The notes beneath the pieces were generated by a model that searched no databases, had not been told where the DNA came from, and saw nothing but the letters and a program-made list of their open reading frames with translations. Source: Planctomycetota bacterium (GTDB lineage Bacteria > Planctomycetota > Phycisphaerae > Sedimentisphaerales > Anaerobacaceae). Taken from it: 34,488 nt of DNA. Position numbers and translations under genes: made by a program. The DNA is taken from the NCBI GenBank assembly GCA_012719085.1, contig JAAYBA010000369.1:1-34488 (forward strand), read 5' to 3'. Shown here piece after piece: positions 156-7,761 of the stretch. The stretch's first letter is position 1. Every line of letters begins with the position of its first letter.

Positions 156-3100
156 TCAGGCTTGCGGCCAGGGGTAGGTGTCGGCCTTGACGACCTCGTA
201 GTTGCCGTCCAGCTCCGGCTGCATCAGGATCAGCGCCCCGATCCGCCGCACCATCTCCGTGACGTATTCCGCTTCCTCGACCTTCAGGCCCCGACCCAGC
301 AGGGCCTTCTCCCGGTAGCTCAGCCACTTCTTGACCACCTGATACCCGCCGATCCGATACTCCCACACCGCCTTCGGCACATTCGACCAATACGCATGCT
401 CATTCAAGTAGACGTCCAACATTGCATCGCCAAACGCCCGCCGCAGTGTCTCATCGTCCTGGCCCCGGACCTCGACCTTGCCGGCCCCCGGCATGCACAC
501 GCCGCCCTGGCCCGCGTGGCCCCAGCCCACCGTCACGTCCAGATGCCCCGCATGCGGGTCCAACGACCCGCCCCCGACACGACAGATCGCACCGATGTCC
601 CTCAAGCGCGAATCGATCTGGCCCGTCGTGACACCGTCAACCGCCTGTTCGGTGTCGAGCAGCGCGGCGACGCGGCGGCCCAGCGCGGCGGAATCCAGCA
701 GCGCCCGCTTCGTCGCGGGCAGCGGGATGCGCGGCCAGTCCTGGCGGATGCCGTCGGCGTTCTCGTCGAGATAGGCCGGGCTGTAGCCGATGGCCAGCGC
801 GTGCATCCAGACGAGGCCCGCCGTCCCGGCGTCGGCGTCGGGATCGCCGATGCCCAACCCGGCCAGATAGGCCCGCGCCACCGGCGAGAGGTTCGCCGTG
901 ATCGTCGCTTCAGCCGCGTAGTGGCCGAACAGGTCCGCCTGCCCGGCGTGGCCCTTCGGCTTCTCCGGCTCGAGGCGCAGGCGAAGGGCAAAACAGGCAT
1001 TGTCCGGCGTAATGAAGTGATCGTCGCTCAAATCCTTGACGAAGTAGCAGGGCACTCCCTCTGGCGAGGCCGAAGAGCGAAAGCGCGTCATGAAGAAAGC
1101 ATTCCCCTCCCAGCACTGCGCCCAGTAGGCGGGACGCGCTCGATTCCACACTCCCGGAACTGCGGAGTAGTAAGCCCATACCGTGTCATATGGGCGAATT
1201 GCATAGGGAACGATATGGTCTTGCCCGAATAATTCCTGCTGAAGTGCCTTCGCCCGGACCTGTTGCGGCACAATCCCCGAGCGTTCGACTTCTAGCCCAA
1301 AGCCCAGTGACCTATAGCCTTCCCAATCCAACGCCGGGTCGAGATAGGCTTTCATGCGTTTTGCGAGCGCGTCGCGGTCGATGTCCATCAGCGCGCCGCC
1401 GCGTTTTTCCATCAGGCCGTTGGACGGCGGCTTTTGCGCCAGTGCCACCACGGAGGGCCATTGCGGGTAGTCACCCACCAGGGAAGATGGGCGGAAGGAG
1501 TAGCGGTTTTCAGGCGTGGGGGTGGCGGTTTCGTATTTGCGGTCGAGGTGTTTGCGTTCCAGGCTGGCGAGCACATCGCGGCGCTTCGTAACGCCCCAAA
1601 AGTGCTGGAAGCGCACCACCGGCTTCTTTGACCGCTTCTCGTTGCGCACCATCAGACATATCACCGTGCCGACGCGGATGCCGACGGCGGTTTGCTCGGT
1701 GGAAAAGACGCTGGGGTCGGGCTTTCCCTCGGGCGTCAGTTTCCCTGTCTCGCGGCTATCGCCGTTCATGCAATCAATCCATATCTTGTCGAACTCGGCA
1801 AGGAGACGCTGGCGCATGACGACAAAGGAGGGGTCGCCGAGGTACGAGAAGTTGGAGATATACGAAACGATTCCCTTTCCGGTCTTGGCGATGCGTCGTT
1901 CGGCGATACGGAAGAAGCGCACGTAAAGGTCATCGAGATTGAACTTCTTGATGCCCCACCCACCTTTGTCAACGGGCGTTGTCAGGCCCTCTTTGTAGAC
2001 ATCGACAAGGCCTCCTTCTTCGGCCGGACTGGTGCCGGCGAAGGCGTTGTAGGGCGGATTGCCAAGGATGACAATGATGGGCGTTTCCTGCTTGACGTGA
2101 TCGGCCCTGTCGCGTTCCTCGGTCAGTTCCGGGAAGAGCGGCAGTTGCTTCTTCGGCTCGGTCGCCGGTTCCCACCCCGTCAGGGCGTTGGTCAGGTAGA
2201 CGCCGGCGCGTTCGTTGCCGTCGGGGTTCAGGGGGGCATCAAGCTGGCGCAGGAGCAGGCCGAGTTGCAGGTGCGAGATGACGAAGGGGGCCGGGAGGAT
2301 CTCGAAGCCGAAGACGCGCTCCATCGCCGCCTTCTTGAGCCGCTGGGCGGTCAGGGCGCTGCGGCCTTTGTCCTGCAAGGTCTTGTGGATTCGCTTGAGC
2401 GTCTCGACGAGCTAGGCGCCGGTCCCGCAACAGGGGTCGAGGATGACGACCTGCTCGTCGGCCAGACCGTCGGCGATGTTGAGCTCTTCGCGGAGCACGC
2501 GGTCGACGCGCTCGACCTGATATTGCACGATCTCCGGCGGCGTGTACCAGACGCCCAGCTCCTTGCGCAGTTCGGGGTCGTAGGCCTTGAGGAATGGCTC
2601 ATAGAAGTATTGCACCGCGTGCTCGTCCTCGAACCGACTGAAGAAGGCGGCCCGATCCACGCGGTTGAGCACGACGCCGGCGCAGTCGAGGACTTCGTCG
2701 ATGCCGAGCGGCTTGAGCCGCTTGGGCATGGCGATCTGATCGAACAGAGTGGCGATCATCGGCACATGCAGGGTCCAGGCGGTGTCGTGCCAGCGAAATT
2801 TGTACCCTGGGCGGTCGCGGTGCTCGCGGCTCCAGAGCACCCACGAGCTGAACACGCCGTAAAACAGCGTCTGCACCAGCGTCGCCCGGAAGAAGTGCTC
2901 GCCCTTGTCGCCCTCGAACTTCATTCCGAGCGCCTCTTCGAGCGCCTTTTGAGACCCTCCAGCGCGGGCAGGGCGGCCTTTTGCTCGACGCGGAACCGCG
3001 CCTCGCGGGCGTAAGAGGCGAGGAACCACGCCAGGTCCTCCGGCTCCGTCAGGGGTGCGGCGTGCAGCATCACACGCCGCAGGAATTCGGCGAGACGCGG

Positions 3101-3634
3101 GCCGTGTTCGTCGGCTGTCTTGCGCGGATGGGCAAGCATCGCATGGAAGGTGTCCTCGCTTTCGGCCAAACGGAACGATTCGAGCCGCAACGGTTTGCCG
3201 CCATCGTCGCGCCCGATGAGCACGAAGTCACGGTAGTTGGTCACGAGCACCAGGTTGTATCGCTTCCAGTACTTGGAGACCTGGGCGCTTTCGCTGCGGG
3301 CAAACGAGTCGTCGTCCCACGGCTTGCACTCGATCACGCCGCGCGAGGGCAACTGGCCTTCGATCGGCAGTGTGTCCTTGGCCCGCTGGAACTGATCGGC
3401 CGTGAACAGACCGAAATCCGGCGCCCCGGCCCCGGTGTTCTTGAGCTGGCCGACGCAACGCACACGCGGCTTGAGCTTGCTGCCGATCTCGTCCAGGAGC
3501 TTCTGCATCGCACCGTAGTAGGATTCCTCAGCCACGCCGCCGCCGCTGCGCCAGATCTCGCTCAAGTCCTTCAGGTAACTCTCAACCGGGTCCACCGCGA
3601 TCTTCCCTCTCTTCGCCTTCACAAACCGGGCCAC
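156..3634 (-). pseudogene. Type ISP / Type IIG-like restriction-modification protein (N6-adenine DNA methyltransferase with N-terminal PD-(D/E)XK-like domain), disrupted by one frameshift and one in-frame stop
   Basis: Three consecutive minus-strand ORFs (2921..3634, 2412..3029, 156..2378) join into one protein of about 1159 aa if one base is added to the AAAA run at 2947-2950 and the TAG at 2412-2414 is read through. N-terminus has GAPDFGLF...RGVIECKPW (PD-ExK-like). Middle has DPCCGTGA (MTase motif I). Then VILGNPPYNAF (motif IV NPPY). C-terminal part has YAIRPYDTVWAYY...WNRARP, resembling the Type ISP C-terminal domain. Confidence 0.85.
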
Positions 3635-3745
3635 AAACGGCCGCCTATTTTAATATCGGCAGGATTCCCCCCGCAACGCCAAGGAATTGCACGTCCGAAC
3701 CGCTGCGGGAGGCGACTGGCGGGGTGGATGTCGCTATTCCTCCGC

Positions 3746-3761
3746 ATGGGCTGAAGCCCAT
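3746..3761. repeat. Short REP-like palindrome ATGGGCT-GA-AGCCCAT
   Basis: Perfect 7-bp inverted repeat in a non-coding interval. Confidence 0.55.
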
Positions 3762-3891
3762 CCTACGCGCTGGCTGAGACGCCACCGATCACGCGGCAGC
3801 GGGGTTCCGCGTCACCGGCCACGGGCCACGAGGAACGGTCCACGCATCCACGCTCGAATCCAGTCGGGGGACGGCGTCCGCCGGAAACCGG

Positions 3892-3910
3892 TACCTGCGA
3901 ATCGCAGGTA
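3892..3910. repeat. Palindrome TACCTGCGA-A-TCGCAGGTA, copy 1
   Basis: Perfect 9-bp inverted repeat with 1-nt centre, followed by GCGCATCTGG. Confidence 0.85.
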
Positions 3911-4245
3911 GCGCATCTGGCCCGGCCCGGCCAACTCCGACGCCACCGATCGCGCGGCAGCGGGGTTCCGCGTCACGGGCCACGGGCCACGAGGAACGGT
4001 CCACGCATCCACGCATCCCGCGCGACGCAGGCCGCAGGCTGGAGGCCGTAGGCCACGCTTCTACGCTTCACGCTCGATACTTCACCCTTCAAGCTTCACA
4101 CTTCAAGCTTCACACTTCATACCGGCCCCCGCTTCTGCGGGTCCCCGTTGCCGGTTGCCAGTTCTTGGTTCCCCCGCCACGCATCGACTCATCCCGACAT
4201 GACAGGCTGCAGGCCACAGCCCACGGCACCCGCCGCCGGAACCGG

Positions 4246-4264
4246 TACCTGCGAATCGCAGGTA
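4246..4264. repeat. Palindrome TACCTGCGA-A-TCGCAGGTA, copy 2
   Basis: Identical to copy 1, same GCGCATCTGG tail. Confidence 0.85.
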
Positions 4265-4583
4265 GCGCATCTGGCCCGGCTTTGATAGGACCGATCGCGC
4301 CGCGGCGCCGTTCCGCATCACGGGCCACGGGCCGCGCATCCCGCGCGCCGCAGGACGCAGGCTGGAGGCTATGGGCCGCAGGCCACGCTTTTACGCTTCA
4401 CGCTCGATACTTCACCCTTCAACCTTCACCCTTCAAGCTTCACACTTCACACCGGCCCCCGCTTCTGCGGGTCCCCGTTGCCGGTTAGACAGTTGACAGT
4501 TCGTGGTTCCCCCGCCACGCATCGACTCATCCCGACATGACAGGCTGGAGGCCGCAGCCCACGGTGCCTGCTGCCGGAATCGG

Positions 4584-4602
4584 TACCTGCGAATCGCAGG
4601 TA
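4584..4602. repeat. Palindrome TACCTGCGA-A-TCGCAGGTA, copy 3
   Basis: Identical to copies 1 and 2, same GCGCATCTGG tail. Confidence 0.85.
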
Positions 4603-4856
4603 GCGCATCTGGTCCGGCTTTGATAGGACCGATCGCGCCGCGGCGCCGTTCCGCATCACGGGCCACGGGCCACGCATCCCGCGCGACGCAGGACGCAGGC
4701 TGGAGGCTATGGGCCGCAGGCCGCAGGCGGGAGGGGCCCGGCCCGCCGTTCCGCATCCACACTTCACACTTCACGCTGGTCCACCCATCTACGCTTCTAC
4801 GAGCAAAGCCTGCCCCGAGGGGAGCCGAGGGGAGCGATGGGCGACGAGCGATGGCG

Positions 4857-7613
<2,757 letters not shown>

Positions 7614-7761
7614 GGCTGCCACTTTATGCCCGCTGCCACCGCCTGTCAAGCATCCGCCCATCCATCGCGCCATTGAATCGCTGGGGCGTGCGTCCCTTCG
7701 ACAGGCTCAGGGCAAGCTCCCGCCCGACATCGCTTCGTTCGCTTCAATCGCGGCCCGGGGA

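Follow-up and report, generated by a model that had tools for sequence, protein, structure and literature searches.

Tandem arrays of degenerate 7-nt units have been described in several groups of bacteria. The cyanobacterial heptanucleotide repeats (Calothrix STRR; Nostoc PCC 7120 GGGGA(C/T)T; PMC4692102) consist of degenerate tandem 7-nt units, are mostly intergenic and occur in many copies per genome. The heterogeneous (GGGANTN)n heptamers of Xanthomonas, also intergenic, combine conserved and variable unit positions, differ in length among related species, form some inverted pairs, and are built on a single G-rich motif with quadruplex potential (PMC4692102). The TAACTGA direct repeats of Beggiatoaceae (PMC4679880) and the heptanucleotide elements of Geobacter metallireducens (PMC2700814) are dispersed intergenic tandem heptamers with a fixed motif, few copies per site and a proposed regulatory role, and the (GATAGRA)n satellites of Chloroflexus aurantiacus (PMC6749651) are heptamer-derived tandem arrays of one regular motif, scattered over one genome. 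Outside the heptamers, GTAG-tagged REPs, known from bacteria that include Planctomycetes, and the BIMEs are characterized by a tagged palindrome, dispersal and frequent head-to-head pairing (PMC3733652). That bacteria carry more heptameric repeats than expected was noted in 2007, still without a tested cause (as cited in PMC4692102).

The window analysed here (the whole stretch of 34,488 nucleotides) holds, at 3780-4800, a real, non-coding, multi-motif and drifting variant of these known degenerate heptanucleotide arrays. Its tandem, degenerate and intergenic 7-nt units support the likeness to such repeats in other bacteria that an earlier note on this DNA, made from the sequence alone, had drawn. 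Unlike the cyanobacterial repeats, the array has many unrelated motifs, a drifting unit, a second level of 338 bp and interspersed palindromes; it is free of the restriction to one G-rich motif seen in Xanthomonas, and its motifs drift, in contrast to the single regular motif of the Chloroflexus satellite. With REPs and BIMEs the region shares the tagged palindrome, its dispersal, the frequent head-to-head pairs and the presence of RAYT-type genes in the genus, but the REP/BIME definition does not include heptad DNA, which forms most of the mosaic in the window.

The array is flanked by polA on one side and by a fragmented type IIG restriction-modification gene on the other, and the main features are as follows:

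3783..4266, no strand: degenerate heptad tract 1 (lag-7 segment score 80.2)
4309..4509, no strand: degenerate heptad tract 2 (lag-7 segment score 62.3)
4647..4777, no strand: degenerate heptad tract 3 (lag-7 segment score 49.6)
4080..4121, plus strand: six CTTCANN units, block copy 1 (from sequence; TRF period 7/14)
4410..4451, plus strand: six CTTCANN units, block copy 2 (from sequence; TRF period 14)
4857..7673, minus strand: polA (DNA polymerase I), its 3' end adjoining the array (Pfam PF00476, E 4e-152)

Autocorrelation at period 7, a check proposed in the earlier note, gives an identity at lag 7 of 0.436 over 3700-4830, where dinucleotide shuffles reach 0.285 (z 11.4). Longer lags are also raised (z 8.8, 4.2 and 3.5 at lags 14, 21 and 28, respectively), and lags 5, 6, 8 and 10 lie at about background. 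The top lag-7 score over 200 nt is 0.545 in the array vs 0.36 in the rest of the window. All of the heptads quoted in the earlier note are found where it placed them (CTTCANN at 4080-4121, GTT units from 4143, CACGGGC...GCGGGAG at 4657-4735), and the presence of several motif families is borne out. Octads (CTTCTACG, CACGCATC) occur among the array units, and lag-8 segments lie next to lag 7 in several heptad-array loci. A coding array is ruled out, as the overlapping ORFs lack an NCBIfam match and neither the period of 7 nor the block length of 338 is a multiple of 3; the array is thus non-coding, as had been claimed.

Above the heptad level, larger segments are repeated:

4009..4722, no strand: higher-order tandem repeat of 338 bp, 2.2 copies (TRF, 91% matches, score 1188)
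3778..3853, no strand: 76-nt direct repeat, its second copy at 3939-4014 (spacing 161; 97% identical)

The palindrome TACCTGCGAATCGCAGGTA, found at 3892, 4246 and 4584, gives block spacings of 354 and 338, which together with the TRF period of 338 confirms the proposed second repeat level of ~338-354 bp. The stretches 4154-4384 and 4492-4722 are 95% identical, block parts are 91-95% identical across copies, and the top four lags within 300-380 include 338, 345 and 331, in steps of 7. A second, diverged block, with its parts in the same order and a REP at its edge, is present on contig C244 of the same genome. The label 'satellite-like' given to this level is too strong, since the 338-bp block is present in only ~2.2 copies, the versions in the two sister species are shorter, and a single diverged copy lies on another contig.

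The earlier note had further held that the different heptad families share one phase, and this stands locally but fails globally. Residues modulo 7 are 6 for CTTCA, 4 for AGGC and 1 for GTT in block copy 1, and 0, 5 and mostly 3, respectively, in block copy 2; because they shift differently, the offset from CTTCA to GTT is unequal between the copies. When 13 arrays from several genomes are pooled, in-phase identity at unit distances 1-6 is 0.497, 0.417, 0.366, 0.325, 0.291 and 0.275, with an out-of-phase identity of ~0.26. Coherence therefore extends over ~4-5 units; the fall of in-phase similarity from 0.50 between neighbours to near background by six units means that the unit drifts along the array, and a single global register is ruled out by this decay and the residue shifts between copies. 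In the window array itself, an overall in-phase excess is absent at lags >=28. The smooth in-phase decay is the pattern predicted by copying of a neighbour unit followed by mutation, and simulated unit duplication, deletion and mutation give a decay that is alike but somewhat slower.

Two palindromic elements, a REP bordering the array and a palindrome inside the blocks, had been missed in the earlier note:

3744..3766, minus strand: GTAG-tagged REP GTAGGATGGGCTTCAGCCCATGC, with dispersed copies in same-genus genomes
3890..3910, no strand: second palindrome GGTACCTGCGAATCGCAGGTA, copy 1
4244..4264, no strand: second palindrome GGTACCTGCGAATCGCAGGTA, copy 2
4582..4602, no strand: second palindrome GGTACCTGCGAATCGCAGGTA, copy 3

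The element at 3744-3766, a short dispersed palindrome that ends on one side in an unpaired GTAG, belongs to the GTAG-tagged REPs; it has 10-62 dispersed copies per same-genus genome, many as head-to-head pairs, and a reversed control pattern has 0 copies in these genomes. The second palindrome, whose three copies anchor the higher-order block at the spacings of 354 and 338, is also a dispersed element in genomes G000, G001, G004 and G029. Because the GTAG-tagged REP stands at the border and the second palindrome occurs three times inside, the region is best called a BIME-like mosaic with heptad DNA as filler, in which the second palindrome is only REP-like. The block could be read as a non-autonomous mobile element that has REPs at its ends, carries heptads as cargo and depends on a RAYT-type transposase for its movement, and the dispersal of the REP in the genus, the REP at the edge of the diverged C244 block and the presence of Y1_Tnp (RAYT-type) genes, above the family cut-off in most relatives and in one case (G005:C17) ~130 bp from a REP, are in keeping with this. 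We nevertheless consider it quite unlikely: only two of nine REPs in random regions lie within 200 bp of a heptad array, a figure that is no more than suggestive of an association, most arrays are without a REP, the ends of the block are undefined, a target-site duplication was not observed, and the sole Y1_Tnp match in the array's own genome falls under the cut-off.

Orthologous sites in relatives were identified through polA. Diverged versions of the array are present at the polA 3' site of G004 (polA 96% identical) and G005 (94%), and a lag-7 array is absent from this site, within ~1.5 kb searched, in G001 (polA 88%), G002, G003, G029 and G036. In G004 and G005, the arrays have polA on one side and, on the other, a conserved stretch of ~170 bp, which corresponds to one further feature of the window:

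3595..3768, no strand: conserved stretch separating the array from the adjacent gene slot, aligned with G004 and G005 (79-84% identical)

Among indels of >=3 nt between homologous copies, the commonest length is 7 nt (10/32); five are of 8 nt, a single one is of 14 nt and none is of 6 nt, these comparisons overlapping and amounting to roughly half a dozen separate places. In G005, two array parts are separated by an inserted protein of 369 aa that has an N-terminal methylation motif of the prepilin type (L044 9814-10923, G005:C40). The homologous arrays that two separate genomes carry at this site also bear on whether the array is an assembly artefact or a set of mis-joined repeats. The assembly consists of 658 contigs, in which copies of a tandem repeat may be collapsed or expanded, but the single-contig relatives G002 and G006 carry heptad arrays too and the period signal is far above shuffles, so that an artefact is extremely improbable.

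Beyond the conserved stretch, the gene slot has different contents in each of the three species. In the window it holds a broken type IIG gene (156-3634), whose pieces on the minus strand (156-2378, 2412-3029, 2921-3634) match successive portions of a single type IIG profile (PDLC03610), the split being due either to a pseudogene or to sequencing errors in the assembly. The same slot contains another type IIG gene in G005 (L044 5822-9259) and, in G004 (L043 198-4007), an unrecognised protein of 1269 aa. The restriction gene pieces have no match in the sister loci, because the slot carries different genes there. Since the slot gene differs in each species, the array lies at the border of a variable slot next to polA, which looks like a small defence-gene exchange site.

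Placed after polA on the same strand, with two palindromes able to form hairpins, the array might be transcribed and act as RNA, or might terminate transcription at the 3' end of polA. However, the predicted fold of the window array is not better than that of shuffles (z -0.8 to 0.3) and an Rfam match is lacking, which rules out its identity as a structured RNA, and polA of five relatives is without a heptad array there; a transcribed RNA or terminator is thus very unlikely. Some heptad arrays in relatives differ from the window array in that the array is succeeded by its own inverted complement, so that the two form a long hairpin. Three of these fold far better than shuffles (L071 4060-4212, z -7.5; L052 10446-10577, z -5.9; L053 9591-9667, z -5.6), which is a point in favour of an RNA or terminator, and a long hairpin is also formed by L095 12299-12783 (range over the four, z -4.9 to -7.5). 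The hairpin-forming heptad arrays of relatives are a separate class, and some of them may have a structural role.

In regions picked regardless of repeats, lag-7 arrays occur at 17-35 per Mb in G000, G001 and G005 and at 9 per Mb in G002 of the same genus, at 90 per Mb in G006 of the same family, and at 0-17 per Mb in genomes of other families in the order, all of these being densities of sampled regions, not of whole genomes. The non-triplet lags 4, 5, 10, 11 and 13 give 0-2 arrays per genome sample and lag 8 gives <=3, and arrays at lags 6, 9 and 12 reflect codons. The ORF-based coding mask is crude in a GC-rich genome, where it includes spurious ORFs, and the split into coding and non-coding arrays is therefore not used as evidence. 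Motifs in use include CTTCANN, CAGTTNN, GTATCTC, AATCCGA, GGCCTGC, TTTAGNN and GAACGTY, and the published cyanobacterial STRR motifs appear unlike those of the window array. With 7-nt units above chance, a non-coding location and further arrays dispersed in the genome and its relatives, the window array is a degenerate heptanucleotide array in the wide sense. Arrays may be clustered, with ten in ~17 kb of G005 (L075 531-17036, G005:C8) and nine in ~12 kb of G004 (L048 7997-19745, G004:C14), and most sampled regions are without any.

Individual motifs reach far beyond the genus. Four tandem CTTCANN units occur in 31 of 298 class genomes, and four CAGTTNN units in 24/198, vs 6/198 for the permuted core ATGTCNN; CAGTT at period 8 is found in 3/198. 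Five tandem CTTCANN units occur in at least 119 DNA stretches, and the 80 listed of these span many phyla. Outside the seeds, these CTTCANN loci contain 31 arrays of period 7, 2 of period 6, 5 of period 8 and 4 of period 9, on contigs that were selected for a heptad array and so are non-random; random sequence of the array's own family gives 10, 2, 1 and 3 arrays of the same periods, respectively. The class member G081 contains large perfect octad arrays (CAGTTGAC)n, with 75 matches over both strands and some at contig ends, and is an exception to the heptad rule.

Another reading is that the array is a selected binding platform, on which a tandem-module protein would recognise a core of 4-5 bases (CTTCA, CAGTT, GGC) once per 7 bases and leave the rest free. 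Many runs have five constant and two variable positions (CTTCANN, CAGTTNN), CAGTT and CTTCA occur in distant class families more than ATGTC, and the Geobacter heptanucleotide elements have been proposed as regulator sites (PMC2700814). Yet the runs with five constant positions came from search patterns that left exactly those two positions free. A distinct-allele column test finds no excess of conserved unit columns (z -1.6), although runs mix motifs and the test is weak, and the core effect in units outside the seed is mild (mismatch 0.10-0.12 vs 0.17-0.21, 80 named loci). The five relatives whose site is without the array also count against such a platform, which we regard as unlikely.

On balance, the array probably arose neutrally, as whole 7-nt units were gained and lost and point mutations accumulated, before segmental duplication took place. 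Short runs would lengthen in 7-nt steps through replication slippage or unequal exchange, point mutations would convert one motif to the next with the local register retained, and recombination between repeats would then duplicate a larger block. A dedicated function would be unnecessary, and if the array influences the 3' end of polA or gene exchange at the restriction-gene slot, this would be a by-product. This neutral reading is supported by the smooth in-phase decay, the frequency of 7-nt indels, the patchy presence at the polA site, the like behaviour of unrelated motifs throughout the genus and class, and the lack of a clear conserved core, of a fold signal in this array and of Rfam or coding matches. 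Neutral slippage alone does not explain the strong preference for 7 over 6, 8 and 9, nor the recurrence of CAGTT-type cores above the permuted core. It is conceivable, though doubtful, that the sharp 7-nt preference, which unrelated motifs show in many phyla, stems from a copying process of its own, linked to a polymerase or a transposase and stepping 7 nt, of which the arrays of this genus would be a direct record.

The genus is rich in arrays whose units drift, and three close species have their own version of one array at an orthologous site. How 7-nt units are gained and lost could be traced across strains here, which would bear on the idea that the footprint of the polymerase favours heptad slippage, and the array illustrates the strength of the bacterial preference for a seven-base unit.
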